64,000 bases of DNA, taken from contig JAIOYW010000004.1 of NCBI GenBank assembly GCA_021740915.1, positions 62,001 through 126,000 on the forward strand, written 5' to 3'. The translations under genes and the position numbers were made by a program. Source of the stretch: Ignavibacteriales bacterium. Lineage in GTDB: Bacteria > Bacteroidota > Ignavibacteria > Ignavibacteriales > Melioribacteraceae. Of this stretch, positions 1-15,966 are shown in pieces. Position 1 is the first letter of the stretch. Every line of letters starts with the position of its first letter. The notes beneath the pieces were generated by a model. It saw only the letters and a list, made by a program, of their open reading frames with translations, was not told where the DNA came from and made no database searches.

Positions 1-1
1 C

Positions 2-3000
2 ATTTTCTGATACCTTAAATACGAGCGAGAATAAAGTCTCTCCCGCTTTTACCTGAAGAGGCTGCAAATCGTCCCATGCTATGCTGATCAAACCTTCATT
101 TTCATTGAAAACTAAACCGCTGCCGGCAAATCTGATAGATTTGAAACTCAGATTATCAGAATCATATTTAATTCCGGCAGTTATTGCAGCTATGTCGGCA
201 TTATAGTTAACTGATACTGGCAATTCAAAGGTTTCGCCCGGTTTTACGTACTGTTTTGTTCCGGCGCTTAAAGCCAGAAACTCGGTTGATTTTGCTATCG
301 GAATATTTGAATATGATGCATTGACATCACCTACAGTCAATCCGAGCAAGTTTTGTGTGGCATTTTGTCCTGCAACTGTAACATCGGGTTTTGTAAATTT
401 CCAGTCACCGGCGGCGAAGCCTGGATCGAGACCGACAGTCCTTCTTCTGATAAGCAGCGCATCGGTAGAATTAACAGAGTTACTTCCATTAACATCTGCT
501 ACAACAAGTCTCAACCCTTCGAGAAGAGTCAAACCTACTGTGTGCCTGCGTACAAGCAATGCGTCAGTTGAATTGACACCACCCCATGCTTTTGTCGTTG
601 TCGAGCTGATAGTATAGGTTCCGTTCTCAACCTGATCAATCTGATATGCTCCATCTGAACCGGTAAGATCAGTCCCAATGCTTTGACCGCCGAGCATCAG
701 ACTGACAGATACATTAGAAAGAGCCGTATTTGCAGTATTATCATACTGAACAAGTCCGCTCACTGAATATGTCGAGGGTAAGATTGAAAAATAAGCATCA
801 CTTACGTCGTAAGTCATAGGATTGGAAGCATCCGATATTTTTATCAAAGCTGACGTGGTGGGTGTATTCGGCACTGCCCACTGATAAGAACCTGTTGAAG
901 CATTCAGCCCGGTTGCAATGGTCTCGAAATTATTTCCGCCGTCAGTCGAGTAAGCAAGATCAACCTGGGCAATGTTAAATGTGAGCCATTCGATTAGGAA
1001 ATCGGAAGAAGCAAATATGTTCTCACCGCCATTTGGAGTGGTAACAGTAACCGGTGCTACACTTACATTTCCGTTTTCGTAAAATACTGTTATCAGATTA
1101 CCTTCAGGATCGCTGACTTCGCATCCCGCAACATTGAAGTCTATCCCTGATTCTCCGCCAATATATGTGAATTTGATATCAAATAACTTTCCGTCCGGAA
1201 CATTTATTCCGGTAAAAGTATTGTCAACCCATGAAAAGTTTACAAATCCATTAGAAGCATTTGCAAGAGCGCCGGTGATCTGAGGATTGTAATTCGTCAA
1301 TGCCTGATATGTAAGAACTGCGGGATCGTATGCAATCTTAAAAGTGATTGCACCAACATTGTTAAAATTCATTGCAGTAACAGGAACATAAACTGTATGC
1401 CCGGGAGCTGCCTGAACCGTTCCTGCTTTTACCAGAACAGGTGTAACAACATGAATTGTAGATGTAACTTCATCAAAGAGGTCACCATCTGATACTTTGA
1501 CTGTAAAGGTGAAATCGCCTGTGTTTTGGGGAGTCCACTCAAAAAATCCGGCAGGGCTTAATGTCGCGCCATCCGGCAGATCAGCGGATGAGAATATCAG
1601 ATCATCATTTTCAGGATCTTCTGCATCATACGGATACGGGAAATACATACCAACAGGAATCGTGGTTTCCGAGATGTATTGAGTAAAATAAGGAGCTGTA
1701 TTTCCAAGTGTTGTCACCGTAGCGACATTACTGTAATCCGACTCAAGTTCGGTATTAAAAGCTTTGACCCGGTAATTATAAGTTGTAAATTGTGCAACTG
1801 AGTTATCCGTATAGGATGTTTCATTCTCACCTAAAGTAGCAATTACTGTGAATGTCTTTTCAGTGCCCTCTTCGCGTTCCACTGTAAATCCGGTTTCATT
1901 CGAAGAATTATCTGCCCAGGTTAGTGCAACTGAACCTATACCAAGATTTTCTGCACTCAAATCAGAAGGAGCATTGATTCCCGGAGCTTCGGTAGAATAA
2001 GTTGCAGTAAGAGTGAGTGATGTGAATGCAGTGTTTGTTACTGTATAAGTTCCCGGTCCTTCTCCGAACGTAACATTAAATATTACTCCGCCGAACGGGT
2101 CTTTTAAGTTTATCTCAACTCCTGCAGGAAGATTCCAGCTTAATGTGTAACCCGATGATCCTGTTCCAAGCTGCCATTTTACATTATGTATGAAAGAGCC
2201 GGTTGTTTGATTGTCGCCCTGACGTAAATCTTTCAGAGAACCAATCGCTGAATTTGGTAATTGAAATCTTGTGTCGAAAATTCCCGCCGGTGGTGCCGGT
2301 GGAAGTTCTTCCTCTCCAAGGGCTGGATCAAGTCCGTCTGTAGCATCAGGATGAAGCCCGAATGTTAATGTCTGGGTTCCGCCCACTCCGTCATTTATCT
2401 GGAGAGGAACAGAGATTCCAGTGCCGGTTCCGCCGGTCAATGCTGTTGCACTTGCTTCGTTACTGTAATCTGATTCTGTTTCCGAATTAACGGCTTTAAC
2501 TCTGTAGGTATATGTCGTACCTTCAACAACGTCCATATCTGTAAATGTCGTTGAATTTGCAGCAAGAGTTGCATAAAGTTCAAATCCGCCTGTATTTTTT
2601 CTTTCTACAACATAATTTGTTTCATTATCTGCATTATCATTCCACGAAAGTGCTATCTCACCAAGCAATAATGCTTCAGCCATAAGATTTGTCGGGGCGG
2701 CTATCGGATTAATAACAGTTCCGCTGTAAGTTGCAGTAAGAGTGAGTGATGTGAATGCAGTGTTTGTTACTGTATAAGTTCCCGGTCCTTCTCCGAATGT
2801 AACATCAAATATTACTCCGCCGAACGGGTCTTTTAAGTTTATTTCAACTCCTGATGGAAGATTCCAGCTTAGAGTGTAACCAGATGATCCCGTGCCAAGC
2901 TGCCATTTTACATTATGTATGAAAGAGCCGGTTGTTTGATTATTGCCCTGACGTAAATCTTTCAGCGTGGCGATGTTTGAATTTGGTAATTGAAATCTTG

Positions 3001-3217
3001 TGTCGAAAATTCCCGCCGGTGGTGCCGGTGGAAGTTCTTCCTCTCCAAGAGCAGGATCAAGTCCGTCTGTAGCATCCGGATGCAATCCGAATGTCAGAAC
3101 ATATTGTCCGCCCACACCATCGCTGACGTCCACGGGTACTGATATAGCTGTACCCTGTCCAAACAGATACGTCCCGGACATTAATAAAATAAATAGTACA
3201 AAGATTTTCCTTTGCAT
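2..3217 (-). CDS. Secreted multidomain protein with Fn3, cohesin and dockerin modules (3' end outside window)
   Basis: The reading frame opens at 3217 after a strong GGGAGG ribosome site and stays open for 1072 residues to the window edge, so the C-terminus is missing. Domains in order: signal peptide 1-21; repeat module A 22-165; Fn3-like 173-261; repeat module B 265-408, nearly identical to A; Fn3-like 416-505; Ig/cadherin-like 506-592; cohesin-like 596-722; a 'TPNGGE' Ig-like domain 723-814; a carboxypeptidase-regulatory-like strand domain 818-875; a dockerin-like pair of VNSTDALL helices (around 881-896 and 908-930, the second with a calcium loop DVNGSNS); and the start of a second cohesin-like domain from about 980. 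It is probably an exported surface or extracellular scaffold or adhesin. A type IX secretion signal could follow beyond the edge but is not visible. No catalytic domain is seen in this portion. Confidence 0.85.
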   Translation of the reverse strand, partial: MQRKIFVLFILLMSGTYLFGQGTAISVPVDVSDGVGGQYVLTFGLHPDATDGLDPALGEEELPPAPPAGIFDTRFQLPNSNIATLKDLRQGNNQTTGSFIHNVKWQLGTGSSGYTLSWNLPSGVEINLKDPFGGVIFDVTFGEGPGTYTVTNTAFTSLTLTATYSGTVINPIAAPTNLMAEALLLGEIALSWNDNADNETNYVVERKNTGGFELYATLAANSTTFTDMDVVEGTTYTYRVKAVNSETESDYSNEASATALTGGTGTGISVPLQINDGVGGTQTLTFGLHPDATDGLDPALGEEELPPAPPAGIFDTRFQLPNSAIGSLKDLRQGDNQTTGSFIHNVKWQLGTGSSGYTLSWNLPAGVEINLKDPFGGVIFNVTFGEGPGTYTVTNTAFTSLTLTATYSTEAPGINAPSDLSAENLGIGSVALTWADNSSNETGFTVEREEGTEKTFTVIATLGENETSYTDNSVAQFTTYNYRVKAFNTELESDYSNVATVTTLGNTAPYFTQYISETTIPVGMYFPYPYDAEDPENDDLIFSSADLPDGATLSPAGFFEWTPQNTGDFTFTVKVSDGDLFDEVTSTIHVVTPVLVKAGTVQAAPGHTVYVPVTAMNFNNVGAITFKIAYDPAVLTYQALTNYNPQITGALANASNGFVNFSWVDNTFTGINVPDGKLFDIKFTYIGGESGIDFNVAGCEVSDPEGNLITVFYENGNVSVAPVTVTTPNGGENIFASSDFLIEWLTFNIAQVDLAYSTDGGNNFETIATGLNASTGSYQWAVPNTPTTSALIKISDASNPMTYDVSDAYFSILPSTYSVSGLVQYDNTANTALSNVSVSLMLGGQSIGTDLTGSDGAYQIDQVENGTYTISSTTTKAWGGVNSTDALLVRRHTVGLTLLEGLRLVVADVNGSNSVNSTDALLIRRRTVGLDPGFAAGDWKFTKPDVTVAGQNATQNLLGLTVGDVNASYSNIPIAKSTEFLALSAGTKQYVKPGETFELPVSVNYNADIAAITAGIKYDSDNLSFKSIRFAGSGLVFNENEGLISIAWDDLQPLQVKAGETLFSLVFKVSEN
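1994..2425 (-). repeat. Direct repeat module, second copy
   Basis: This codes for residues 265-408 of the secreted protein and is the partner of the module at 2723-3154. Each copy is followed by a more diverged Fn3-like domain. The duplicated unit is therefore module plus Fn3, with strong DNA conservation only in the first part. Confidence 0.85.
2723..3154 (-). repeat. Direct repeat module, N-terminal copy
   Basis: This codes for residues 22-165 of the secreted protein. It matches the second copy at 1994-2425 with a constant offset of 729 bases (243 codons). Over about 2730-3069 the two copies are almost identical in DNA, with only scattered substitutions. The shared part includes the Pro-rich EELPPAPPAG segment and the GTYTVTNTAFTSLTLTATYS end. 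Confidence 0.85.
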
Positions 3218-3362: not shown

Positions 3363-4037
3363 TTAAGTTAAAACGGTATTATCTTTCAAAATTAGTACTC
3401 TGTCACAAAGTTTTTCAAGATATTCTGTTTGATGTGAGATAACAATGAATGTGATCTTAAATTTACTGCGTAACCTTACAATCAGATTAAACAGATTTAG
3501 CTTGGACGCGGTGTCCTGTGCAGAAAACGGTTCATCCAGAATCATGATTTCAGGCTTAATTGCAAAAAGCCTAGCCATAGCTATTCGCTGCCTTAATCCT
3601 CCGCTAAGTTCAGATGCCTGCTTGCTCAGAGATCCTCGATCAATTTCAAATGTATTTAATAAAATATCTATTTCTTTACTATAATCAAAGGTTTTTGATT
3701 TAAAAATGAATGAATCTGTCAATAAATCGTAAACATTCCTCTCCGGGTTGAGCAGCTCTTCACTGTTCTGGAATAATAACTGAATCGGAGAATATTTCTG
3801 TTCAAAATCCATCCCAAAATAATCAATTTTTCCAGCCGAGGGAACAAGTAAACCGACAAGTAGTTTTGCAAGGGTGGTTTTCCCACTCCCTGATCTGCCT
3901 GTTATCCCAAGTGTCTCCGATCTCATAACACTGAAACTGATATCTCTGAGCAGATCCGATCTTTTTTTTATAAAAGCGGTTTTACCCTCATATGAACTGT
4001 ATCCAACAGATATTAACCTGATAATATCATTTTCCAT
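3363..4037 (-). CDS. ABC transporter ATPase, oligopeptide/dipeptide type (DppF-like)
   Basis: This is a 224-residue nucleotide-binding protein with a Walker A (GRSGSGKTT, about residues 46-54), an ABC signature (ELSGGLRQR) and a Walker B (IMILDEP). It would energise uptake through the permeases encoded divergently at 6499-8699. It is short for the DppF/OppF family because it lacks the usual C-terminal oligopeptide-binding extension. Its start overlaps the end of the upstream ATPase gene by 11 bases, which indicates translational coupling. Substrate specificity cannot be read from the sequence; peptide or nickel-type substrates are family-based guesses. Confidence 0.87.
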   Translation of the reverse strand: MENDIIRLISVGYSSYEGKTAFIKKRSDLLRDISFSVMRSETLGITGRSGSGKTTLAKLLVGLLVPSAGKIDYFGMDFEQKYSPIQLLFQNSEELLNPERNVYDLLTDSFIFKSKTFDYSKEIDILLNTFEIDRGSLSKQASELSGGLRQRIAMARLFAIKPEIMILDEPFSAQDTASKLNLFNLIVRLRSKFKITFIVISHQTEYLEKLCDRVLILKDNTVLT

Positions 4038-4806
4038 AAAAAAATCTATAACTGTCTATTAGTGAGCGGAGATAATCGCTGTTCATGTTGTCATAATCGA
4101 AAAATTCAGTTTTGGTAATGAAAGGAGACAGGGTTTTTTCGTTCACGTAAGCAATTTGCGTACAGATATCTTTTAAAAATCCGAGATCGTGTGATACCAG
4201 AAAAATAATCCCTCCTTCATCAGCCATTTTGCAAAGTAAATTGGAGACCGATTCAGCGGATATGAGGTCAAGAGCTGAAGTGGGTTCATCCAGAAAAAGA
4301 ATCTGCGGTCTGGAAACAAGTGCAAAAAGGAGCGCAATTCGCTGTAGCTGACCAACACTTAATTCATGCGGGAATGCAGAAAGAAATTCATTCGTCGAAG
4401 GAAGCCCCAAAATTTCAGAATATTCCGAGATTCTTTCTTCGGGAATATCAGGAGGAAAATAGAATCTTATCTTCCTGAAAGGATCGAAACTATCTGACGG
4501 ATTCTGGAAAATATAGCGGATTTGTTTTTGCCTCAGGATTCTCATCTCACCATTATTCAACTTTAGAATGTTTTGCCCATTTAAAAGAACTTCACCTTCA
4601 GCCGATATTATTTTCTCATCCTGCAGCCCGGTGATACATTTTAACAAAGTTGTCTTCCCTGTCCCGTTATCTCCAATAATCCCGTATAGATTTCCACCCG
4701 TGAGTTTAAAGTTTATTCCTTTAAGAATTGTCTCCGAATTGGAAACAATTTGTATTTTTGGGAAATTGACAGACAGTTTGATTTCGCACATATAGTAATG
4801 AACCAA
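4027..4806 (-). CDS. ABC transporter ATPase, oligopeptide/dipeptide type (DppD-like)
   Basis: This is a 259-residue ATPase with a Walker A (GDNGTGKTT), a signature region LSVGQLQR (the second Gly of LSGGQ is kept, the first replaced by Val) and a Walker B ILFLDEPTSALD. It is probably the partner of the ATPase at 3363-4037 in a heterodimeric motor. An internal ATG at 4791 is an alternative start, and neither start has a strong ribosome site. The gene diverges from the substrate-binding protein gene, with only 35-50 bases between the two starts. Confidence 0.87.
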   Translation of the reverse strand: MVHYYMCEIKLSVNFPKIQIVSNSETILKGINFKLTGGNLYGIIGDNGTGKTTLLKCITGLQDEKIISAEGEVLLNGQNILKLNNGEMRILRQKQIRYIFQNPSDSFDPFRKIRFYFPPDIPEERISEYSEILGLPSTNEFLSAFPHELSVGQLQRIALLFALVSRPQILFLDEPTSALDLISAESVSNLLCKMADEGGIIFLVSHDLGFLKDICTQIAYVNEKTLSPFITKTEFFDYDNMNSDYLRSLIDSYRFFYGK

Positions 4807-4841: not shown

Positions 4842-6506
4842 ATGAAAATAACAAAAATCATACTTATGCTGTTATTTCTCATGACAGCCTTTTCCTGCGT
4901 AAGAAATTCACGACATGATGAAGAGAGAATTATTATTGGAATTTCATCGGATGTAGAATCGCTAAGCCCACTTTATTCCTTTACGGTTGCTCAGGGTTAT
5001 CTCTCTGAACTTATGTTCCTGTCATTAGTAAGATATAAGTGGGATAATGAAAATCACAAAATTTCAGTTGCACCCATGCTGGCAGAAGAAATGAGATGGA
5101 ATCAGGACAGTACTTCTATTGAAATTGCTCTTCGGGAGGATGTTCAATGGAGTGATGGTTCAAAACTGACTGCGAATGATATTTCCTTTTCTCTCTGGGC
5201 TTACTCAAATCCTGAAGTTAACAGCAGATTTGTAGGCGTTTTGAACAAATATTACCTGTTAGATGACGGAACGATAGATACTTCAAAATCAATAACAATT
5301 CTCTCGGATTATAAATTTCGTCTGAATTTTCACAAAGATTCAAATCCGGCATATTTTGAATTTGATTTTCCTATTATCCCCGCTCATCGATTCATTAAGG
5401 TTAATCCAAAGGACTTTGAAAAAACTGATTTTAATTTTCAACCGGTGACAAGCGGACCATATAAATTAAAACGATGGGAAAGAAATCAGCATATCATTCT
5501 TGAAAAAACCAAAACATCATTCCTGAACTCAGATGAAACAGTAGGTGAACTTGTTTTTAAGATAGTGCCTGATTATGTCTCAAGAATAACACAATTAAAA
5601 ACCGGGGAACTTGATCTGGTCGAGGAGGTGAAGCCGGAAGACACCAGAGATCTGAAAGCGTATGATCATCTGAAAATCGCAACAGTTGGAGACCGTGAAT
5701 ATGATTATATCGGCTGGAATAACATTCTAAGGAATAGCCGGAAAAATAAGTCCGTGAACCCCCACCAATTGTTTGGGACTCCGGAGGTCAGAACCGCACT
5801 CGCCATGACAGTTAACAAAGAGGAATTTATCTCGGAATATTTAAATGGTTTCGGGAAAATTTGCAAAGGTCCAATTTCGGATATTTTTATTGACAATCCT
5901 GATAGAAATCCTGTACCTCTTGGATTCGATTTAAAGAAAGCCGCTGAAGTATTGAGTTCTGCAGGATGGAAAGATACCAATGGTGATGGTCTTTTGGATA
6001 AAGATGGTGTTGATTTTTCATTCGAACTTATTATTAGTTCCGGGAATCCAAGAAAAGACTATTTGTCAGAAGTCTTAAGAAATAATCTGCGATCGATCGG
6101 GATAGAGACAAAAATCAAAAAACTTGAAATGGGACTCTTCATCGATAAACTGCTGACAGGTGATTTTGATGCATTTATTGCTGGCGCATACGTGCCAATA
6201 CCTCTCGAGATGCGTACCTACTGGTATTCAGATCTCGATATTGCAACATTTAACCTAATTTGTTATAGAAACCCTGCTGCAGATAAAATCATTAATGAAT
6301 TGGAGAATTCTTCTGATTATTCAAAAAACCAGAAGAATATTATTGATTTGCAGAGAATAATTTATCGGGATCAGCCTGTTTCATTTCTTTATTGGATCGA
6401 TAATATTATTGTACATAACTCCAGACTCGAAAATGCTTCATTTGATCCTTTGAGTGCCATACATGATTGCTGGAACTGGAGAATATCAGGAAGCCAAGAT
6501 GAATAA
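4842..6506 (+). CDS. Extracellular solute-binding lipoprotein, family 5 (peptide ABC importer)
   Basis: This 554-residue protein has a lipoprotein signal peptide with lipobox TAFSC (lipidated Cys at residue 19). The family-5 binding-protein fold shows in the typical segments VTSGPYKLKRW and AAEVLSSAGWKDTNGDG. It should capture peptides or similar solutes in the periplasm and hand them to the two permeases that follow. Its stop overlaps the next start by 8 bases. Length is normal for DppA/OppA proteins. Confidence 0.9.
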   Translation: MKITKIILMLLFLMTAFSCVRNSRHDEERIIIGISSDVESLSPLYSFTVAQGYLSELMFLSLVRYKWDNENHKISVAPMLAEEMRWNQDSTSIEIALREDVQWSDGSKLTANDISFSLWAYSNPEVNSRFVGVLNKYYLLDDGTIDTSKSITILSDYKFRLNFHKDSNPAYFEFDFPIIPAHRFIKVNPKDFEKTDFNFQPVTSGPYKLKRWERNQHIILEKTKTSFLNSDETVGELVFKIVPDYVSRITQLKTGELDLVEEVKPEDTRDLKAYDHLKIATVGDREYDYIGWNNILRNSRKNKSVNPHQLFGTPEVRTALAMTVNKEEFISEYLNGFGKICKGPISDIFIDNPDRNPVPLGFDLKKAAEVLSSAGWKDTNGDGLLDKDGVDFSFELIISSGNPRKDYLSEVLRNNLRSIGIETKIKKLEMGLFIDKLLTGDFDAFIAGAYVPIPLEMRTYWYSDLDIATFNLICYRNPAADKIINELENSSDYSKNQKNIIDLQRIIYRDQPVSFLYWIDNIIVHNSRLENASFDPLSAIHDCWNWRISGSQDE

Positions 6507-7467
6507 ATCTTTTATCCTGTTTTTATTTCGAAGGATATTTTCTGCGTTACTCAGCATAATAATTATTCTTACTATCGTTTTCTTAATGACCCGCTTCGTT
6601 CCTGGTGTAAGCAGCAAAGCTATTCAGAGCCGGGCCGAGAATAAGGTCTTAATCGAAGAAAATCAACAACGTGGAAATTCGTTCTTTATTGAGTATATAT
6701 CATCAGTTACAAATTTCATAAGATTGGATTTTGGCTATTCGCATGATTATCATCAGCCTGTAACAAAAATAATTAAACAATATTTTCCCTTTACTTTGTT
6801 TTTTGCGCTGACAATTTTTTTCTTCCAGATAATTTTTACAATAGGATTTGCCTTATTATCATTCACGCTCCGCAGTAATAAGCTTGATACATTTTTTTCA
6901 AATCTTTTTTTATCACTCTACTCAGTACCCACTTTTATCATTGGTATTTCGCTGATCTCCATATTCAGTTTATTTCTCGGAATTCTGCCAACCTCAGGGA
7001 CAGGATCATATGAAAGTTATGATCAGGACTTTTTAATATACATCTTTGAAAAAGTAAAATATCTTATTCTTCCTGTTGCAACTCTGACAATAACCGGAGT
7101 TTCCTATTATTACAAATTCCTCAGGGAAATGATGGATGAAGTCTCCCGTAAACAATTTATACTTGCTCTCAGAGCGGCAGGAAAAGATGAGAGATCAATC
7201 CTGCTAAAAAATATCCTTCCAAATTCTCTTTCGCCATTTATATCTAATGCAGGCATTGAACTCGGATTGCTGCTTTCAGGAAGCCTGATTGTTGAATTCC
7301 TCTTTGGTTTGCCTGGAATGGGAAGGATAACAGTTGTTGCCATCCTTAACAGAGATTATCCTCTTGTGGTTGGCTGCACCGTTGTTGCATCTTTTGTTGT
7401 GCTTTTTGCTAATATGACCGCCGATATTGTGCGTAACCGGCTTAATATCAGGCTTGAAATGAAATGA
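6499..7467 (+). CDS. ABC transporter permease, DppB-like
   Basis: This 322-residue integral membrane protein belongs to the binding-protein-dependent transport permease family. The start is taken at the ATG at 6499 (MNKSFILFLFRR), which overlaps the preceding stop as expected for coupling. A longer in-frame start at 6454 lies inside the binding-protein gene. The EAA loop region is visible around ALRAAGKDERSILLKNILPNSL, followed by a LFGLPGMGR segment. It ends in an ATGA overlap with the second permease. Confidence 0.9.
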   Translation: MNKSFILFLFRRIFSALLSIIIILTIVFLMTRFVPGVSSKAIQSRAENKVLIEENQQRGNSFFIEYISSVTNFIRLDFGYSHDYHQPVTKIIKQYFPFTLFFALTIFFFQIIFTIGFALLSFTLRSNKLDTFFSNLFLSLYSVPTFIIGISLISIFSLFLGILPTSGTGSYESYDQDFLIYIFEKVKYLILPVATLTITGVSYYYKFLREMMDEVSRKQFILALRAAGKDERSILLKNILPNSLSPFISNAGIELGLLLSGSLIVEFLFGLPGMGRITVVAILNRDYPLVVGCTVVASFVVLFANMTADIVRNRLNIRLEMK

Positions 7468-8699
7468 AAAAATATTGGAATTTATATCATTTCATTCTGA
7501 TTATTTCAGCAGCGATAGTGGTGCTGAATTATAAAATAATAGTCTTCACCGGCATGTTTATCTGGAATCCGGGAATTCAGTATGAAACTGATCCAGTGTA
7601 TTTCAGGGATACATTTCTCCATTATCAGCTGTCAGTTTCTGCTGCGATGATTGCTTTGATAATCTTGCAAATTCCTTTCGTCAGGGTTAAACTCAGTTCG
7701 AAAAGATTGGGTCTGCGGAATTTTGCCTTTATACTGCTTCTATCTTTTTACTTTTTTGCTCCTCTGCTCACGTCTTTGCATCCGAATTTCAGAGATAATC
7801 TGAAAGCAACTAAGTTACTTCCCCCCTTAAGCAGTATAGAGTATTTAAGAATTATCGACCCTCAAATAGAAACATCCCTCTTACTAAACTTTGAATACGA
7901 TAAAAATCTTCATTTTGCAGAAAAAATTGAAGTATATGAAAATTTCGCAATTCTCTCGACCGGGCAAATATCAGACACCCTCTCGTTAATAAATACAAAC
8001 GGAACAAAACTCAGCTATTCAAATGGGCTAAGGATATTTCCTTTCGGCTCCGATGAGCATGGCAGAGATACTTTTTCCAGAGTGGTTTTCGGGGCAAGGA
8101 GTTCACTTACAGTAAGTTTTTTTTCAGCGCTGATTGCATCAGTAATAGGCATATTATTAGGATTTTTCGCCGGATACTATCAAAAATACACCTCTTTATT
8201 CATTGATCGTATCTCCGAGATAATACTTGCATTTCCAATGATTTACCTTATTATAATGATATATGTTGTATTCGATGCCGGTATCTATAATTTAATTCTG
8301 ATACTTGGATGCAGCGGTTGGGTATCGATGTACAAAACCGTGCGGGGAGAAGTCTTGAATATTGTTAAAAAAGATTATTTTTTGACTTCAAAATTGCTGG
8401 GAATCAGGGGTTTGAACCTTCTTTCAAAAGAAATTATCCCCATAATAAAAATACCGGTTTCAATAAATCTGGTTTTAATGTTTGGAAATTTTATACTCAC
8501 AGAATCGGCTTTGAGTTATCTTGGTTTAGGGATAACGGGTAATAATCCATCCTGGGGTTCAATGATAACTAATGGACAGGAATACCTCGGTGTCACTTTC
8601 TGGCCGATTGTTTTTCCTTCACTTGCAATCATAACGACGACAGTTACTATTTATTCGGTCGTTCAAAATGTCAGGGAATCAAAAAGTCAGCGCTTATGA
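7464..8699 (+). CDS. ABC transporter permease, DppC-like, with enlarged extracytoplasmic insert
   Basis: This 411-residue permease has the DppC/OppC hallmark PFGSDEHGRDTFSR and a C-terminal SALSYLGLGI segment. It is about 100 residues longer than usual. The extra sequence lies between the N-terminal membrane segments and the DEHGRD motif (roughly residues 105-190) and looks soluble, probably facing the periplasm. Its start overlaps the upstream permease (ATGA) and its end overlaps the kinase gene start, also as ATGA. Confidence 0.9.
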   Translation: MKKYWNLYHFILIISAAIVVLNYKIIVFTGMFIWNPGIQYETDPVYFRDTFLHYQLSVSAAMIALIILQIPFVRVKLSSKRLGLRNFAFILLLSFYFFAPLLTSLHPNFRDNLKATKLLPPLSSIEYLRIIDPQIETSLLLNFEYDKNLHFAEKIEVYENFAILSTGQISDTLSLINTNGTKLSYSNGLRIFPFGSDEHGRDTFSRVVFGARSSLTVSFFSALIASVIGILLGFFAGYYQKYTSLFIDRISEIILAFPMIYLIIMIYVVFDAGIYNLILILGCSGWVSMYKTVRGEVLNIVKKDYFLTSKLLGIRGLNLLSKEIIPIIKIPVSINLVLMFGNFILTESALSYLGLGITGNNPSWGSMITNGQEYLGVTFWPIVFPSLAIITTTVTIYSVVQNVRESKSQRL

Positions 8700-11600
8700 T
8701 AAATTTCAGATACCTTGTAAAAAATAAAATTGGCGAAGGACGAAGCAAAGTTTTCAGGATCGAAGACAAGTTCTTCCCGGAACAACCGCTGGCGATCAAA
8801 GTTTTGAGTTCTTCAGCAAATTACCAGGAAAAAGAACTGTTTGAACGGGAATTTGAGATTTTACAAAATCTTGATCACCCGGGAATTATTAAATGTTATT
8901 CCCGGCAGATAGTAGATTATTCAGATGAAAGTGATAATGAAATAGATATTCAAAACGGTGATCATTTCCTTGTGCTTGAATATTTCCCCGGCGATGATCT
9001 AAACAAATCATGCGGATATCTTTCCTCAGAAAATCTAATAAATATTGCTTGTCAGATAGCAGATATACTCTTTTATCTGCATCTTAATAATTATATTTAT
9101 TTCGATGTCAAAGCAGAAAACATCCTTTTAAAAGTCGATCTTTCGGGGTTAAAGATTAAATTCGTCGATTTTGGGATGACTGAATTTAATCCCACCATTT
9201 TAGATTATTCAGTCAGAGGAAGTATTGAATACCTTGCTCCTGAAATAATTACCGGCACTTTATATGATTTCAAAGTTGACCTGTATTCACTTGGCATTCT
9301 GCTCTATAAGATCAGCACAGGCAACTATCCGTTCAGGGAGCTGGAAAGAGTTGATATTTTGAACTGGCATCTGAATTCGGATTATATTCCGGAAAATCAA
9401 AAGCTGCCGCCAAAGTTTTATAAACTAATTCAAAAACTGGTTTCCAAAGAACCAGTTGAGCGCCCTCAAAGCGTGCTTGAAGTTATTATTACTTTGCTGG
9501 GAACCATCCCCGCTGAAATGAAACAACATTGGAGAATTTCCGGCAAATTCAAAAACAGAAAATCCTTCTACGAAGTCTGCAATAATTTTCTTGACGGAGA
9601 ACAAAAATACAATGTCATTCTTATCAGGGGAAAGTCAGAATTTGAGAAAAGAAAACTATTACCCGAGATATACCTGAACAGAACTGATACGCTCTTTCTC
9701 GATTGCAGTATTGATTCCGATATTATTAATGCATATAGAGTAATTGCTCATCAGCTTGTTTTCTCTGTTAAGACAAATTCTTCAAAATTACTTTTTAAAG
9801 AATTACCCGAACTTTTTGACAAACAGGTGAATGATGCTGTAAAAGCCGGACTGATTCTCACCAATTTGTTCCGCAGGCTTGATAACAATCTTATTATAAG
9901 TAATCTGGATTCAGCACCAAGATTTTTAGCAGAAACATTGCGCAATCTGATTCTAATCTCGTCAATAAACGGACTTCGCATAATTATAGATACTGAAAAG
10001 GAATCCTTTGTTTCCGGTTTACAATCTGAAACCCATGTCTATAATTTACTTCCATACGCGGAGAGTGAAATCACACAATACGTGAAAGAAAATCTCAATG
10101 AATTTATACATCCTGAATCGCTTGGTGCAATAATTTCAAAATCCGGCGCTCAGTATCCCGATGAATTCAATTATCTGTTTTTCGAATTGCTGACGCATGG
10201 TTATATCTCAATATCAGATAGCAGTTTCACTCTTGCAGATTCGGCTGATCTTATTGAAATGTTCCGGAATAGAAAAGCCGATTTTTTTTACAGTAAAATT
10301 TCCATGCTGAGTTTTGGTGCAAACAGACTGCTTAAAACAATTTCCATTCTCAAGTCAAAGTTCTCAACAACTGAATTAATCTCATTCGGGCTGATAAATG
10401 AAGGAAACCGGGAAACAATTTTTACGGAGCTATTTGAAGCTAACCTTATATTTGAAGACGCTGGGAAAAATCGGTTAATGCTTAGCTCCGGGGTAATTGC
10501 CGATTTGCTTCGGGAACAAATTTCTCGGGATTTTGAACTTATTGAAGAAATCGCTTCAGCAGCTGCAGAACATCAGTTTATGAGTTATAAGGAAATTGGT
10601 GACCTTTATATGATTGCTGTAAATCCAAAGAAAGCTTACAGTTATTATAAAGAAGAAACCGAAAGATTAAGCCGTATAAATGAATCTGTTTATAAGAGTG
10701 AATTTCTTGAAGAAATATTAAAAAAAGTCCCGGATCAGAGTAATGAAGCTTTTATTCGCTTTGAATTATTCAAAGTTTACTCAGCACAAAATAAACTTGA
10801 GAAAGCTAAGGAGATGGGAGAATGGTGTTTGAATACATTCCATTCTGACAGTTCTGAACTAATAACTGTAAAAAAACAGTTGATTCTGATTTATATAAGA
10901 CTCCGTTTGCCCGAAAAAAGTATAACACTTGTTGAAGAACTATGTGGTATTGATCAGAATTTCAGACATCTTGGATCTACTAAATTATTCAGGGCAGAAA
11001 TAGCTCTGGATAAAGAAGACCTTGTAAGTGCCGATAATCTTTGCAGAGAAGTTATAGAGGACGATAATTCCGCACTAGAGGACAAGGGCAATGCATATAA
11101 TCTCGCAGGAATTATCAAATATTATTCCGGCGCTCCTTTTGAGAGTGTTGTATATGATTTTAGCAGGTCAATCGAAATATTCAGTTCCGAAGGAAACTAT
11201 GAAAGAAAATCTTCAATTGAGGTTAATCTCGGAAACATTTTTTCGCTTCGGGGTGAATTTGAGAAATCAAAAAATTATTGGGATGAAGCGTTGAACTCAA
11301 ATGAGAGAACAGGCGATCTCAACCAGCAAGCCAACATACTGATGAATCTTGGGATTTATTATCTGAATCTGGCGTCACTCGAAGAAGCGAATGAGAAATT
11401 AGCAACCGCTGGTAAAATATTCAGCGCAATGGGTGATTCTTATGGTTTTGCCCTGAGTCTCATAAATCTTGCTGAAACACACTATTATAATTGCATGTGG
11501 GAAAATTCATTGGATGAATTGCGGAGAGCTGAAAGAATTTGTCTTGATCTTAGTGAATACAGAGAAATTCCGCTTATCAAATACTTTATGGCCGCTAATT

Positions 11601-12253
11601 ATTTCAGAATTGGGGAGATTTCTGCATCTGAAAATATTGTTGAGGATTTTTTTAATGATTCTCCTGAAAAAGATGTCCGCGTTAAAGCAAAATATATTTA
11701 TCTGCGGCATGAGCTGGCATATGAAAAAGAAAAAGATATTGATCGGGAAGAACTCGTTTCTGCTGTAAAAATACTTTCAGAATCCGGGGATCATTTCGAT
11801 TGTTTTTTTGCACTTCTTTTACTGATCAGCTATAATATTAAATTAACTGATTTTTCTGCTGCTCAATCGCTTCTCAATGAGTATTCTAATCTCTTTAAGA
11901 ATAATGAGATGTTTGCGGCCGGGGAACACTTCCTCACCGGAGAATTAAGGCAGAGTAACAGTCTTCTCAAAGAGGGTTCGTCCCTTGATGAATATTTGAA
12001 AGCTTTCCATATTGTTGAAAATCTAAGTATTAATGAAATGACGTTAAAAATAATATTCGCGATTGGAAATGATTATTTTCATCGGGGAGCGTACAGAAAA
12101 GCCGAAGAATACTACAACTATGTAAAAGAGTTGCTTAAAATTATGGCGGGCAAAACTGGAAATGAAAGGTCGGTGAAAAAATTTCGGCTAAAAAAGGATA
12201 TTTCCTCAATGATTGAGCAGCTTAAACTTTTTGAGCAAACAATTGAATCCTAA
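8696..12253 (+). CDS. Ser/Thr-kinase-like protein with STAND-like middle region and TPR repeats
   Basis: This is a 1185-residue protein. Residues 5-270 form a eukaryotic-type protein kinase domain: glycine loop IGEGRSKVF, Lys35 in AIKVL, catalytic-loop D137 in YFDVKAEN, DFG 158-160 and APE 181-183. The usual HRD is replaced by YFD, so the catalytic-loop His and Arg are missing. Residues 285-560 resemble the AAA/STAND ATPase part of giant kinase/histidine-kinase proteins, but the P-loop is degenerate (IRGKSEFEKRK at 310-320, lacking GxxxxGK). Residues 600-1170 are helical and TPR-rich. There is no signal peptide, so the protein is cytoplasmic. The gene is translationally coupled to the peptide-transporter permease, suggesting it senses or controls transport. 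Kinase activity is uncertain. Confidence 0.85.
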   Translation: MINFRYLVKNKIGEGRSKVFRIEDKFFPEQPLAIKVLSSSANYQEKELFEREFEILQNLDHPGIIKCYSRQIVDYSDESDNEIDIQNGDHFLVLEYFPGDDLNKSCGYLSSENLINIACQIADILFYLHLNNYIYFDVKAENILLKVDLSGLKIKFVDFGMTEFNPTILDYSVRGSIEYLAPEIITGTLYDFKVDLYSLGILLYKISTGNYPFRELERVDILNWHLNSDYIPENQKLPPKFYKLIQKLVSKEPVERPQSVLEVIITLLGTIPAEMKQHWRISGKFKNRKSFYEVCNNFLDGEQKYNVILIRGKSEFEKRKLLPEIYLNRTDTLFLDCSIDSDIINAYRVIAHQLVFSVKTNSSKLLFKELPELFDKQVNDAVKAGLILTNLFRRLDNNLIISNLDSAPRFLAETLRNLILISSINGLRIIIDTEKESFVSGLQSETHVYNLLPYAESEITQYVKENLNEFIHPESLGAIISKSGAQYPDEFNYLFFELLTHGYISISDSSFTLADSADLIEMFRNRKADFFYSKISMLSFGANRLLKTISILKSKFSTTELISFGLINEGNRETIFTELFEANLIFEDAGKNRLMLSSGVIADLLREQISRDFELIEEIASAAAEHQFMSYKEIGDLYMIAVNPKKAYSYYKEETERLSRINESVYKSEFLEEILKKVPDQSNEAFIRFELFKVYSAQNKLEKAKEMGEWCLNTFHSDSSELITVKKQLILIYIRLRLPEKSITLVEELCGIDQNFRHLGSTKLFRAEIALDKEDLVSADNLCREVIEDDNSALEDKGNAYNLAGIIKYYSGAPFESVVYDFSRSIEIFSSEGNYERKSSIEVNLGNIFSLRGEFEKSKNYWDEALNSNERTGDLNQQANILMNLGIYYLNLASLEEANEKLATAGKIFSAMGDSYGFALSLINLAETHYYNCMWENSLDELRRAERICLDLSEYREIPLIKYFMAANYFRIGEISASENIVEDFFNDSPEKDVRVKAKYIYLRHELAYEKEKDIDREELVSAVKILSESGDHFDCFFALLLLISYNIKLTDFSAAQSLLNEYSNLFKNNEMFAAGEHFLTGELRQSNSLLKEGSSLDEYLKAFHIVENLSINEMTLKIIFAIGNDYFHRGAYRKAEEYYNYVKELLKIMAGKTGNERSVKKFRLKKDISSMIEQLKLFEQTIES

Positions 12254-12383
12254 AATTTTTAATATGCCATTTCTATTTATTACAGGTATTTTTTACCGGA
12301 AATATTTCAAATCATCGTAATAATAATATATATTATGGACTTAATAATGGCATGATTTATGATTGTTACAGTCAGATATATTC

Positions 12384-12390
12384 AAGGAGT
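12384..12390 (+). promoter_or_regulatory. Ribosome binding site that fixes the lipoprotein start
   Basis: AAGGAGT lies 5 bases before the ATG at 12396. This favours the short start, which puts a lipoprotein signal peptide at the N-terminus, over the in-frame start at 12363. Confidence 0.7.
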
Positions 12391-12395
12391 ATTAT

Positions 12396-12974
12396 ATGAA
12401 AACTGTTAAATTTCTTCTCGTTCTTTTAGTGCTTGTCGCCATCGGCTGTTCAGAATCGGGTATTACCGATCCTATCAATGAAGGTAGTTCAACTAAAACT
12501 CTTAAAAAAGAGTTCATAAAACTTCCTACTCTCGATCAAAGCAACGATTTAAATACTGAAGCATTATTTATTGCCGCAAAATTCATCAAGGGCGAAATTG
12601 GTGGAAATATTACGCTCAACCGCACTTACTACACGGAATCCGGTATTGCAAAAGTAAAATCCAAATTGGATATACCTTCAGATGCTTTTTCGGGATGGCA
12701 GCTAATAGCCTATTTAATCAGCACTGAATATGCAGTTGTTGACTTTTTCCCATCAATGGAGTTCGACAAGGACCTGACTCTCGATCTTGAATTCCAAAAT
12801 ATCGACCTTTCCGCGGTTAGCAGCCCTTCAGAAATTGAATTCGCCTATATTGATAATTCCGGAACAGTTCAGATCGCCGAATACGATGAAATTGAAGTTG
12901 ATGTTGAAGAAGGCACTTTGTCGGTGACTGGTGCTAAAATTGGGCACTTTTCAAGATATGGATTCATTAGATAG
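12396..12974 (+). CDS. Lipoprotein with ZU5-like domain, function unknown
   Basis: This is a 192-residue protein with a lipoprotein signal peptide (lipobox VAIGC, Cys at residue 18). The region from GEIGGNITL through LDIPSDAF to a C-terminal IGHFSRYGF resembles the layout of ZU5-type beta domains (GG...IP.gA...HFS.Y). That match is by eye and tentative. It lies 142 bases after the kinase/TPR gene and 21 bases before the next TPR gene, so it may be an envelope partner of that signalling cluster. It is acidic in its second half. Confidence 0.65.
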   Translation: MKTVKFLLVLLVLVAIGCSESGITDPINEGSSTKTLKKEFIKLPTLDQSNDLNTEALFIAAKFIKGEIGGNITLNRTYYTESGIAKVKSKLDIPSDAFSGWQLIAYLISTEYAVVDFFPSMEFDKDLTLDLEFQNIDLSAVSSPSEIEFAYIDNSGTVQIAEYDEIEVDVEEGTLSVTGAKIGHFSRYGFIR

Positions 12975-12995
12975 GACATATTTAAGTCTATCAAA

Positions 12996-14243
12996 ATGGA
13001 AAGAGTAAGTGGAGAACTTGCGAACGGACTGATCGATGCTCTGAAGGAAATACTTCCTGAGTCTGAGATCAGTAATTTTAAGGATTATTTTAAAAGCCTT
13101 GAGAAATCATCTGTCCCCTTATCTTCAAAGAATATAATCACAGCGAATGGAATCTCTGTTGAATCGAACGCAGCAGTACACAGGTTTATTACCTATATTA
13201 TGCTGCGTTATGAGGACAAGACAAGAATCTCCATTCTGATTGCTATTGGAAATTACTGTATTGCACGAGGTCAGTATAATATTGCCGCGGATATTTTTGC
13301 AGTAATTATCAACAAGTTTAAAAATAATCCTAATTTCCGCCTGACGCTTGCTTACTGTTATATGGAGACTGGAAATATTCTTGCCTGCCAGGCTTCATGG
13401 AAACGGTCAGTAACTTCACTAAAAACATCAGTCTCACTTTTCAATGAACTTAATGATTTCAAAGGACTCGCAAAATCGAACAACATTATTGGTTCGGTTT
13501 ATGCGGAAAAAGGTGAGTTAGATTCAGCTTTCAATTACTTTAATTCTGCTCTTGGTTATGCCGGAAAAATAAACGAAACAGGAGTGATTGCGGGTATTGA
13601 AGCCAATATTGGAATTCTCAATAATATGCGTGGAAAATTCGATGCGGCTTATGGATATTTTAACCGGGCGCTCATCAGGTTTACTGAATTGAATGAATTG
13701 AGATATATGGCTGAAATGAGGCATAATCTTGGGATGTACTTTTTAGAAAAAGAACTTTTTGAATCAGCTTTTCACGAATTTGATGAGAGCATAAATCTTT
13801 CAGTGAATGAGCGATTTATGCCTGTACTCGCTTTAGGATACATCAGCAAGGCTTATACATACACCATCCTCTCTGATCTTAAACTTGCAAAAGCTTTTAA
13901 TGATATTGCTGCCAAACTTGGCTATGAACTTTCTGATAAGTTAACCGTTGCCGAAAGTTTTAAAATTGAGGGGATTATTAACAGGAAAAGCGGTAATCAT
14001 GCTTTAGGTGAATCCAATTTGCAGACTGCAATAAGACTCAACCAGGAACTTGGAAATCAAATAAACCTTGCTGAATCACAAATTGAATTGGCTCTTTTAT
14101 TTCTTGATCTGAATGACTATAATTCTGCTGCTACTCTTTTATCGAAAGCAGCAGGCTATTATCGAAGAATTGGTAATCAGAAACAACTCGACAAAATTAA
14201 ATCATTAAAAGAACAGATCAGGAAAAACAGATCAATTAAATAA
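12996..14243 (+). CDS. TPR-repeat protein
   Basis: This 415-residue protein is made almost entirely of tetratricopeptide-like helical repeats, with patterns such as AKSNNIIGSVYAEKGELDSAFNYF and similar around residues 150-400. It has no signal peptide or membrane segment, so it is probably a cytoplasmic scaffold. The repeats resemble those at the C-terminus of the kinase protein at 8696-12253. The gene sits between that gene and a histidine kinase gene, as a TPR block would in the fused giant kinase proteins. Start context is weak (no clear ribosome site). Confidence 0.8.
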   Translation: MERVSGELANGLIDALKEILPESEISNFKDYFKSLEKSSVPLSSKNIITANGISVESNAAVHRFITYIMLRYEDKTRISILIAIGNYCIARGQYNIAADIFAVIINKFKNNPNFRLTLAYCYMETGNILACQASWKRSVTSLKTSVSLFNELNDFKGLAKSNNIIGSVYAEKGELDSAFNYFNSALGYAGKINETGVIAGIEANIGILNNMRGKFDAAYGYFNRALIRFTELNELRYMAEMRHNLGMYFLEKELFESAFHEFDESINLSVNERFMPVLALGYISKAYTYTILSDLKLAKAFNDIAAKLGYELSDKLTVAESFKIEGIINRKSGNHALGESNLQTAIRLNQELGNQINLAESQIELALLFLDLNDYNSAATLLSKAAGYYRRIGNQKQLDKIKSLKEQIRKNRSIK

Positions 14244-14286
14244 TAATTCTCACTTTTCAGAACTCCGGGTCAATATAGTTAATACA

Positions 14287-15621
14287 ATGAAATTTAACGA
14301 CTTCAAAGATAAAATCGATCAAAAACGGCGTGAAGTTGACAGGAACAACTCTTCCGGTTCCAGAATCAAATATCTTGAGGCTATTCTTGATATCACCTCG
14401 AGGATAAATAAAACTCTCATCCTTGAGGATGTACTTAAGCAGGTTTTAATTAATGCTATACAATTGGCGGAAGCTGACCGTGGATTCATTGTGCTTCTGA
14501 ATTCTGAAAATTCTCTTGAGTATAAACTTGGAATAAACTCCACAGGAAATGTATTACCTTCTCAGCTCTTTCAGATCAGTCAGAGTGTTGTTGAAAAAGT
14601 TTTCCACGAAAAGCGTTCACTGTTTATTGAATTTGCCCAAAGCGGTGAGGATGATGCACCTTCTAAGAGCATTCTGAATCTCGATCTTCAAACAATACTC
14701 TGTTCCCCGCTTATAACTGATGACAAAAAAATAGGTGTTATTTACGTTGACAGTAAGTCCCTGCGGAAGATTAAGAATAAAGAAATGACTGATACTTTTG
14801 AGATTCTTGCCGGTCAGGCTGCTATCGCGATAAAAAATGCGCAGCTTTACAAAGTTCAACAGGAAACAATGAAAGCGCTTCGGGAAAGTAATCAGAATCT
14901 GAGACTTGCGAAAATCGAAGCGGAAAATTCAAATAAACTGAAATCTGAGTTCCTTTCTCAGATGTCGCATGAAATAAGAACACCCCTAAACATTTTAATG
15001 GGGTTTTCCAACTTATTAAAAGAAGAATTTGAGGAAGTATCGAACAAAAAGCATAAAGATATTCTTGAAATGTTTGATCTTGCGGGGCAGCGGCTCATGC
15101 AGACTATAGACTCTATACTTGAGATGTCACAAATACAAACCGGTAATTATGTTTTAGAACCTGTCAGATTAAATCTGCATTATGATGTTCTTTTTGATAT
15201 AGCAGAGAAGTTCAGAGCAGATTCGTACAGAAAAAACCTCGGTTTTGTTTATTCTTATCATGGCACTGATGTTGAAATTGTTGCAGATAGATTTATGGTA
15301 AGGCAAGCTATTTCAAAAATACTCGAGAATGCCGTAAAATTTACAAATACCGGCGTAGTATCTCTTATAATGGAACCTGGAAACGGACATGGTATTTCTG
15401 TCACGATTCGTGATACCGGAATTGGAATATCAGAGGAATATCAGAGAAAACTGTTCACTGCCTTTTCACAGGAGGAAAGCGGATATTCCCGGCGTTATGA
15501 TGGGAATGGACTTGGACTGGCAATTGCAAAAAAATATCTTGATCTGAATTCTATAAAAGTCGCTTTCACTAGCACCAAAGATTTAGGGACCGAATTTACC
15601 CTTCAATTCAACCGTTCCTGA
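14287..15621 (+). CDS. GAF-domain sensor histidine kinase
   Basis: This 444-residue soluble kinase has a GAF domain at about 45-185, a short coiled-coil linker at 187-215, HisKA at 217-285 with phospho-acceptor H228 in FLSQMSHEIRTP, and HATPase_c at about 325-440 with DTGIGI and GNGLGLAI. There is no transmembrane segment and no receiver domain. The GAF-HisKA-HATPase tail is the module usually found at the C-terminus of kinase-STAND-TPR giant proteins, and here it is a separate gene 43 bases after the TPR gene. A response regulator is not encoded nearby. Confidence 0.92.
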   Translation: MKFNDFKDKIDQKRREVDRNNSSGSRIKYLEAILDITSRINKTLILEDVLKQVLINAIQLAEADRGFIVLLNSENSLEYKLGINSTGNVLPSQLFQISQSVVEKVFHEKRSLFIEFAQSGEDDAPSKSILNLDLQTILCSPLITDDKKIGVIYVDSKSLRKIKNKEMTDTFEILAGQAAIAIKNAQLYKVQQETMKALRESNQNLRLAKIEAENSNKLKSEFLSQMSHEIRTPLNILMGFSNLLKEEFEEVSNKKHKDILEMFDLAGQRLMQTIDSILEMSQIQTGNYVLEPVRLNLHYDVLFDIAEKFRADSYRKNLGFVYSYHGTDVEIVADRFMVRQAISKILENAVKFTNTGVVSLIMEPGNGHGISVTIRDTGIGISEEYQRKLFTAFSQEESGYSRRYDGNGLGLAIAKKYLDLNSIKVAFTSTKDLGTEFTLQFNRS

Positions 15622-15892
15622 AGCATCCCTGCATTTGGAAATATCCACATAAAATATTGCGGGTATTTCCCGGTTTGCTTTTGGCTGCGGAGATACCCGT
15701 CATGTCACACAATAATTGCAGATAATATTTACGGAAGAATTCCTGTCAGTAGATAGATCCACATTCGAAAAATAAAAAGGGTTTCACAAATGAATGTTAT
15801 TGATATTCTAATTGAGGATTAAATCGAAAAAAATATAATACTGAAGTTTTAATCTAAAACAGCGGGATTGAATGTCTGTAATGCCTTAATTG
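15622..15892. other. Non-coding region containing an inverted repeat
   Basis: No credible gene is seen. CGGGTAT at 15660-15666 pairs with ATACCCG at 15693-15699, with further partial pairing inside (TCC/GGA and CCG/CGG). There is no U-tract after it, so a canonical intrinsic terminator is not supported, although it closes the histidine kinase operon. Confidence 0.4.

Positions 15893-15966
<74 letters not shown>

Follow-up and report, generated by a model that had tools for sequence, protein, structure and literature searches.

Introduction

Why should a large serine/threonine protein kinase share an operon with an oligopeptide importer, and why should the pair be followed by a lipoprotein, a tetratricopeptide-repeat (TPR) protein and a histidine kinase? 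The question is raised by a gene cluster in a 64,000-nucleotide stretch of DNA from an Ignavibacteriales bacterium of the Melioribacteraceae (GenBank assembly GCA_021740915.1, contig JAIOYW010000004.1, positions 62,001 to 126,000, forward strand), which is referred to below, at its whole length, as the window. An original prediction, made from the letters of the window, took three of these genes for the dispersed parts of one giant kinase-STAND-TPR-GAF-histidine-kinase protein and proposed that together they sense peptide transport. The reading favoured here, with a probability of roughly 0.7, sharpens the idea of transport sensing and abandons that of the giant: judged from sequences and predicted structures, the cluster would be an imported-peptide signalling system, in which a heptapeptide, apparently a specific one whose coding sequence lies in the cluster itself, is released, taken up by the Opp importer, sensed by the kinase-STAND-TPR protein and tied to sigma-54 feedback. 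Peptide signals that are imported by Opp and read inside the cell are known from Gram-positive bacteria; Ignavibacteria-related bacteria are diderm, and those that carry the cluster are not known to signal by imported peptides.

Conservation of the importer-kinase unit

The cluster contains a complete set of Opp genes (ABC ATPases, solute-binding protein (SBP), OppB and OppC, identified with Pfam). On the plus strand, an OppA-like peptide-binding lipoprotein (4842..6506; SBP_bac_5, E 1.5e-62), whose best NCBIfam match is Opp4A, below its cut-off, is followed by the permeases OppB (6499..7467; BPD_transp_1, E 1.7e-26) and OppC, of a long subtype (7464..8699; BPD_transp_1, E 5.5e-19). The kinase gene (8696..12253, plus) comes next and encodes 1185 residues, with a Ser/Thr kinase domain (Pkinase, residues 7-258, E 3.5e-38), a degenerate STAND ATPase and a TPR superhelix (TPR_12). 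OppB and OppC overlap by four bases, as do OppC (end 8699) and the kinase (start 8696), the latter being the ATGA-type overlap that had been noticed at the outset. Two divergent ABC ATPases on the minus strand, OppF-like (3363..4037; ABC_tran, E 2.8e-26) and OppD-like (4027..4806; ABC_tran, E 8.9e-28), form a pair (3363-4806) that recurs beside the cluster in relatives. Downstream of the kinase, also on the plus strand, lie the lipoprotein (12396..12974), a TPR protein of 415 residues (12996..14243; TPR_12), whose gene accompanies a lipoprotein gene at many loci, and a histidine kinase (14287..15621; GAF, HisKA and HATPase_c), which recurs in the downstream unit of relatives. The three reading frames on which the original prediction was built (8696-12253, 12996-14243 and 14287-15621) are therefore real, and Pfam finds in them the kinase, TPR, GAF, HisKA and HATPase_c domains that had been read from the letters.

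Conservation was followed in a main sample of 58 genomes, the window's own included, with up to 20 kb read around each kinase copy. A full-length kinase homologue is present in 24 of the 58 (own included), the others sharing 23-28% identity with the window copy; in this count one homologue is split into two matches and one or more are cut by a contig end. The kinase stands directly after OppC, on the same strand, in 22 of 25 copies in these 24 genomes, and for the remaining three (two in G020, one in G012) OppC lies about 8, 18 and 9 kb off on the same contig. The OppC query matches 25 of the 58 genomes, that is, all 24 with the kinase and one of the 34 others (G025, which also has the lipoprotein), a co-occurrence with a Fisher P of 2e-15 when related genomes are treated as independent. 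In 17 further genomes, drawn from a 294-genome class draw and from the F9 draw (F9 being the repeat-protein family described below), adjacency is seen in 11 (G291, G310, G298, G118, G288, G281, G245, G192, G151, G078 and G112), and in four (G067, G142, G188 and G093) the kinase is near OppC without adjoining it; in G068 the Opp set is generic, and the kinase was not found in the stretch read. Among 395 genomes of the phylum, with two candidates scored per genome, all 21 kinase matches at E 1e-60 fall in the same class, one of them partial only. The homologues that carry names come from an Ignavibacteriaceae metagenome-assembled genome (MAG), a Melioribacteraceae MAG and Bacterium BMS3Abin03.

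The downstream genes belong with this unit. A lipoprotein gene (E <1e-17) or an F9 gene is found in 24/24 genomes with the kinase vs 3/34 without it. The lipoprotein family as such is present in 37/58 genomes at E 1e-3 and in 22/58 below 1e-17, matches between these values being left out of the counts, and units of lipoprotein, TPR protein and sometimes GAF kinase are also found on other contigs. Genes further out are common only to subsets of three to eight loci (families F10 and F12-F17). That the importer and the kinase form a conserved unit, as the original prediction required, is thus borne out, and it is near certain that the cluster is a conserved system. It may also have a wider or older form: a Zixiibacteriota contig (QZKQ01000087.1, L061:8247-15392) carries a sigma-54 activator, a full-length kinase-AAA_16-TPR protein and a GAF-HATPase kinase consecutively, with no Opp genes within the stretch examined. 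Since both kinases are consecutive on that contig, the link between them appears to be wider than the Opp-linked order.

A heptapeptide shared by two families of proposed precursor

What could such an importer deliver to the kinase? The lipoprotein, which the original prediction had left as a bystander between the other genes, is probably a signal precursor. In the window it has 192 residues (the start is more likely ATG 12396 than TTG 12363), and it ends in HF-SRYGFIR, the last seven residues being encoded at 12951..12971; the family as a whole ends, with variation, in HF-S-R-Y-G-F-x-R/K. A second family, F9, is found in 15 of the 58 genomes, all of them kinase-positive, either within the cluster or on another contig. 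In its members a Sec-type leader and a short conserved region precede tandem units of about 16 residues, e.g. SNSQLDELGSRYIFAK, which carry the same kind of heptapeptide as the lipoprotein tail in up to 16 heptamer repeats. The leaders of both types of precursor were judged by eye to be of the Sec type. F9 had been regarded as unrelated to the lipoprotein, a view that was dropped once the repeat heptamers were seen to match the tails.

The match holds genome by genome. Tail and F9 heptamer are the same in G055 (SRYIFAK), G056 (SRYAFAK), G037 (ARYGFTR), G002 (SRYGFVR) and G118 (SRYGFTR), both SRFGFLR and SRYGFLR occur in the tails and in F9 of G031, and the two differ by one residue in G017, G020, G039 and G192 (the tails of G118 and G192 were read in fetched loci only). 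Taking the best pair in each of 12 genomes, 72 of 84 residues are identical and six pairs are exact; permutation over these genomes gave a mean of 49.8 identities and a maximum of 67 in 300,000. When each genus is represented by one genome (nine in all), the permutation P is 3e-6 or 1e-5, depending on which of two choices of genomes is made. Outside the heptamer the two families are not alike, and because the heptamers agree while the families differ elsewhere, one receptor or transporter would appear to read both. We have high confidence that the shared heptapeptide is a functional unit.

In the window's genome (G000), F9 was not found by search, and there is one lipoprotein of the family; the only hit of the tail pattern is the lipoprotein at 12396-12974, with three hits in the backward control. 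A degenerate, stop-anchored form of the pattern, applied to G000, G055 and G056, gave nine hits, seven of them in known carriers (backward controls 3, 3 and 4), and two further hits were discarded, their stop-free stretches having only 26 and 20 residues. Beside F9 in many loci stands a further family, F11, with HExxH in 8/8 aligned copies and no Pfam peptidase match.

For about thirty genomes a heptapeptide can be predicted in this way (SRYGFIR in the window; SRYIFAK, SRYAFAK, ARYGFTR and others in relatives), and since the precursor peptide is readable straight from the genome, testing with synthetic peptides is possible at once.

A ZU5-like lipoprotein with a putative cleavage site

The lipoprotein is modelled as a beta sandwich (mean pLDDT 86), the final strand of which, residues 187-191, lies within the heptapeptide, with a break at HFS. 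In a structure comparison, ankyrin ZU5 domains hold the first nine places, with Z falling from 9.9 to 8.4; the best of them has a root-mean-square deviation of 3.1 over 115 aligned residues. Below them come an unrelated row (8.3), the GAIN domains of CD97, BAI3 and BAI2 (8.0 to 7.6) and UNC5b (7.5); another unrelated row reaches 8.0, and glycosidase domains of similar Z stand among the GAIN and UNC5b rows. The ZU5-like character that had been suggested from the sequence finds support in structure comparison and not in Pfam, whose ZU5 family does not match and in which neither the lipoprotein nor F11 reaches the cut-off of any family.

According to passages of PMC3210808, ZU5 proteins such as PIDD cleave themselves at HF/S just past the domain, and in CARD8 and NLRP1 the serine of SF/S is required for self-cleavage. 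HF/S with its nucleophilic serine likewise stands at the end of the domain in the lipoprotein family: HFS (codons 12945..12953 in the window) is kept in 48 of 53 distinct lipoproteins, the window's included, and 43 of the 53 end at the last residue of the heptamer (three rows are omitted from this count, two being cut by locus ends and one, HFSAYAFGR, falling outside the search expression). A cut at HF/S, in the window between F185 and S186, would free exactly the last seven residues, starting at the serine where the similarity to F9 begins. The chance that the lipoprotein cleaves itself in the manner of ZU5 domains is put at about even.

HFSxY is found at the end of ZU5-like domains, and the tail could be thought a generic ending of that kind. 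This explanation was rejected, as lipoproteins of G037 that have lost HFS keep the F9 heptamer of that genome. In the same genome, locus L221 (5642-10643) carries a duplicated lipoprotein-TPR block, in which some lipoproteins have lost HFS and retain ARYGFTR.

Candidate receptors

The receptor could be the TPR part of the kinase, the separate TPR protein or both. In the kinase domain of the window copy, K35, the catalytic Asp (YFDVKAEN) and DFG are all retained. The middle part, which had been called STAND-like, deserves that name in relatives: in an alignment of 24 homologues GK[ST] of Walker A is retained in 23/23 other copies, the Walker B region is mostly DDxN, and AAA_16 scores above its cut-off in the full-length Zixiibacteriota homologue (Pfam). 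In the window it is degraded, with EKR and SNLD at these positions, so that neither STAND motif is present, and it has no Pfam match. No DNA-binding domain was found in the window kinase by the Pfam scan, matches to profiles of defence systems fall on the kinase domain or are weak, and in NCBIfam the kinase, the lipoprotein, the TPR protein, F9 and F11 are all without a family at cut-off.

Residues 275-1185 of the kinase were modelled with a mean pLDDT of 83. Domain III of MalT is the top fold match (Z 27.5), Rap-pheromone complexes follow at Z about 26-27, and NprR-NprX gives 25.0. The resemblance of the modelled C-terminal helices to MalT and to pheromone-bound Rap receptors is suggestive only. 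Among the PDB profile matches of the TPR protein (12996-14243) is RapF (E 5e-14), which LGN and KLC outscore. The pairing of TPR and lipoprotein genes, which is like that of Rap and Phr, speaks for the TPR protein as the receptor, and the kinase has in its favour that it shares an operon with Opp. On a separate contig of G039 (L219), a peptide-binding protein gene of the same family as that of the cluster stands beside lipoprotein and TPR genes, an arrangement which ties the importer to these genes.

Two other kinases were encountered. One of the two copies in G020 (L038, 4637-8227, minus) has altered catalytic motifs (YNLNPAN, FDFS) and is perhaps a pseudokinase. On contig C27 of the window's genome, L230:9146-12676 (minus) encodes a 1176-residue FG-GAP-repeat protein that adjoins another sigma-54 activator; it was rejected as a paralogous module, as its kinase domain is C-terminal, after the FG-GAP repeats, and the two genes are a different kinase-activator pair of different architecture.

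Sigma-54 activator and promoter-like sites

Where the sequence downstream of the kinase is visible (24 copies), the next gene is in 15 cases that of a sigma-54 activator, with an AAA+ domain, a lid and a Fis helix-turn-helix. The receiver-like look of its N-terminus comes from a single weak match to CheY2 (E 0.039), and the conserved Asp was not found in the relatives' copies. The natural inference is that the neighbouring Ser/Thr kinase would control the activator, by phosphorylation or by binding. On the kinase tree the absence of the activator needs about four changes (three of them forced), so the copies without it are not a single clade; the window kinase forms the longest branch, and its placement is unsure. 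The window's genome has rpoN, and 15 activator-like genes elsewhere.

Sites resembling the -24/-12 elements of sigma-54 promoters were sought with one expression within 130 bases upstream of genes, upstream stretches shorter than 130 bases or containing N being excluded and expected counts being taken from shuffles. They are found in 21/46 upstreams of the lipoprotein (0.30 expected) and 10/16 of F9 (0.12 expected), in 0/178 of the ABC, SBP, OppB, OppC, kinase and activator genes, and in 1/38 of TPR, 3/40 of GAF kinase and 0/12 of F11 genes. As the expression had been fixed after a first weight-matrix scan, new upstreams were counted separately, and here the lipoprotein has 13/38 (0.31 expected) against 1/17 for OppB, 1/34 for TPR, 1/40 for GAF kinase genes and 5/303 for unrelated open frames. 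In the window the site (TGGCATGATTTATGA, 12348..12362, plus) lies upstream of the lipoprotein, at the position of the sites in relatives. This suggests that the lipoprotein may have its own transcript. Separate transcripts for the transporter and the kinase cluster, which the original prediction took as fatal to its proposal, may thus hold in part without breaking the system, because a sigma-54-like site precedes the lipoprotein.

Proposed mechanism and alternative explanations

Gene conservation, co-occurrence, matching heptamers, promoter-like sites and fold matches are the computed results from which we infer cleavage, import, binding, phosphorylation and feedback. A heptapeptide of the form SRYGFxR would be carried by the lipoprotein in the window and, in relatives, also by the secreted repeat protein F9. 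The ZU5-like domain would probably cut itself at HF/S and so free its last seven residues, and F9 would need a protease to separate its units, for which F11, with its HExxH motif, is a possible candidate. The neighbouring Opp importer would then take the heptapeptide into the cytoplasm, where the TPR superhelix of the kinase, the separate TPR protein or both would bind it; import and intracellular reading are considered likely. The kinase would relay the signal, in most relatives likely to the adjacent sigma-54 activator, and sigma-54 transcription of the lipoprotein or F9, TPR and GAF kinase genes would close a feedback loop. The more specific proposal, namely a pheromone system of an undescribed kind, with a self-cleaving lipoprotein and alpha-factor-like repeat precursors, an imported peptide read by a kinase-STAND-TPR protein and sigma-54 control, is made tentatively, its probability being somewhat short of even.

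Several results weigh against imported-peptide signalling or against one of its steps. In G007 and G053, tail and F9 agree at only 3/7 residues, and these are the only genomes in which the two precursors share a contig, different contigs being involved in 10/12 (F9 is often at contig ends, so that a different contig is no proof of distance). Five of the 53 tails are without HFS; the tail is modelled as a confident last beta-strand, so that it may be structural or may stay bound after cleavage; and Foldseek returned no significant match for the lipoprotein. The fold matches of the TPR superhelix are unspecific, APC/C chain O and LGN being no more than about 2 Z units away. The OppC query matches 171 of the 294 class genomes, many of them through the common permease domain, from which the subtype is inseparable by E-value, and G253 has the Opp set with no kinase in the fetched stretch nor genome-wide at E 1e-60. 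The activator is absent after the window kinase and after eight other copies of the 24; the window's sigma-54-like site is weak, the pattern matching at 17 places in the window vs 8.7 expected, and only 1/7 new F9 upstreams has such a site. The output step is least certain in the window's own genome, because the cluster has no activator gene there and the ATPase motifs of the kinase are degraded. Departure of the heptapeptide from the cell would be a putative step, and cell-to-cell signalling and self-monitoring are both candidate roles.

The self-monitoring version is a variant of imported-peptide signalling rather than its opposite. The lipoprotein would shed its last strand on envelope stress or turnover, Opp would recover the peptide from the periplasm, and the kinase would read it as a signal of damage or assembly. 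The Sec-type leaders of both precursors and the membrane anchoring expected of a lipoprotein speak for it, as does the possibility that the importer draws the peptide directly from the periplasm, and the fragments may stay together after cleavage, as passages of PMC3210808 describe for CARD8; F9, however, with up to 16 heptamer repeats, looks suited to bulk supply of peptide and not to sensing. On balance this is possible, with the odds leaning against it. It is improbable that F9 and the lipoprotein tails are antimicrobial precursors or those of ribosomally synthesized and post-translationally modified peptides (RiPPs), with the transporter and the kinase serving uptake, regulation or immunity. 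The tandem core-like repeats of F9 would suit such a role, an NCBIfam family of the patellamide type matches over 14 residues just below its cut-off, and the best NCBIfam match of the TPR protein is a RiPP-associated TPR protein, far below cut-off; but none of the recurring neighbour families that were identified is a RiPP maturation enzyme (the scans covering part of the neighbours), the peptide is also part of a folded lipoprotein, and the transporter, having an SBP, is of the importer type.

The remaining explanations need no heptapeptide signal. If HFSRYGF were simply the closing strand of a ZU5-like fold, F9 a repetitive surface protein and the Opp-kinase pair a sensor of nutrient peptides, the ordered tail of the model and the poor match in the two genomes with linked precursors would follow, and the link between kinase and Opp, taken alone, is compatible with nutrient sensing. 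This account is no more probable than that of RiPPs: heptamers are identical within genomes though the families are otherwise unlike, the G037 lipoproteins without HFS still hold the F9 heptamer ARYGFTR, F9 is confined to kinase-positive genomes among the 58, and the sigma-54-like sites lie mainly upstream of the two precursor families. Least probable of all, and by a clear step, is the giant protein dispersed into genes that senses transport flux through the permeases. The domain order along the DNA of the window is indeed the same, and in Zixiibacteriota the kinase-AAA_16-TPR gene is followed by that of a GAF-HATPase protein. However, uncut kinase homologues fill frames of about 1190-1340 residues, no GAF-HisKA fusion or other fused form was seen in any locus read (other phyla were not searched for fused forms), and the order of genes is variable, with the TPR gene absent, duplicated or elsewhere, genes intervening, and the downstream unit occurring on other contigs; a specific candidate for the ligand exists besides. 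The two very large GAF-type frames near Opp (L267 and L269), considered as the fused giant, turned out to encode PAS histidine kinases that lack a Ser/Thr kinase.

Relation to known systems

The closest analogy for imported-peptide signalling is with the RRNPP(A) systems of Bacillota (Rap-Phr, NprR-NprX, PlcR and AimR, with Rgg and PrgX as further receptor families). In these a precursor is exported, its short peptide (5-10 residues when mature) being C-terminal or repeated, and an Opp-type importer and a TPR receptor complete the system, the receptor gene standing beside that of the precursor; the cluster is proposed to have a counterpart of each part. Tandem pheromone precursors are known among them, and passages of PMC11343458, which report this, describe RRNPPA propeptides as having 50-120 residues; the lipoprotein of the cluster, folded and of about 190 residues, is larger. 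In the cluster, unlike in these systems, the importer genes share the operon, the candidate receptor is fused to a Ser/Thr kinase and a STAND part, the precursor is a ZU5-like lipoprotein, the proposed output involves sigma-54 and the hosts are Ignavibacteria-related bacteria rather than Bacilli. In the parts of the sources consulted, RRNPPA genes are reported in Firmicutes, the group surveyed (PMC9765709), and the RRNPP family is placed in Gram-positive bacteria (PMC7564271), whereas the homologues of known family are Ignavibacteriaceae and Melioribacteraceae MAGs. The cluster would thus work like RRNPP(A) systems and is not a member of them, its candidate receptor, precursor and output being of other kinds.

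With MalT and PknK the kinase protein shares a STAND ATPase and a C-terminal TPR-like sensor, and PknK has the kinase-STAND layout as well; it differs from both in having no DNA-binding domain found, in its operon with a peptide importer and, in the window copy, in a degenerate P-loop. With the self-cleaving ZU5/FIIND domains of PIDD, CARD8 and NLRP1, as presented in the passages cited above, and with GAIN domains the lipoprotein is compared on account of its ranking among ZU5 and GAIN folds and of its HF/S just after the domain, but here a bacterial lipoprotein ends seven residues past the motif, and self-cleavage is putative. The relatives' activator has the AAA+ domain, lid and Fis helix-turn-helix of the NtrC family and departs from it in its receiver-like N-terminus without the conserved Asp, in its place beside a Ser/Thr kinase and in being missing from the window cluster. 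A description of such a system was not found in a literature search of open PMC papers. If the reading is true, a diderm system with its own importer and a Ser/Thr kinase receptor would mean that the strategy arose elsewhere from other parts, and bacterial signalling would be linked to the ZU5/GAIN self-cleavage of animal inflammasomes and adhesion receptors.

Other genes of the window

Three features outside the cluster may be mentioned. A single tRNA gene was found in the window: tRNA-Pro (cgg; 15892-15966, minus), which separates the GAF kinase, the last gene of the cluster, from a TonB-dependent receptor. Positions 1-3217 (minus; also seen as L057:2613-6218) cover the first part of a protein of 1202 residues whose domains are cohesin, fibronectin type III, dockerin and a type IX secretion tail. 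At 24121-28194 (minus) lies the gene of a hybrid histidine kinase, 1357 residues long, that combines several PAS domains with two receivers and one Hpt domain.

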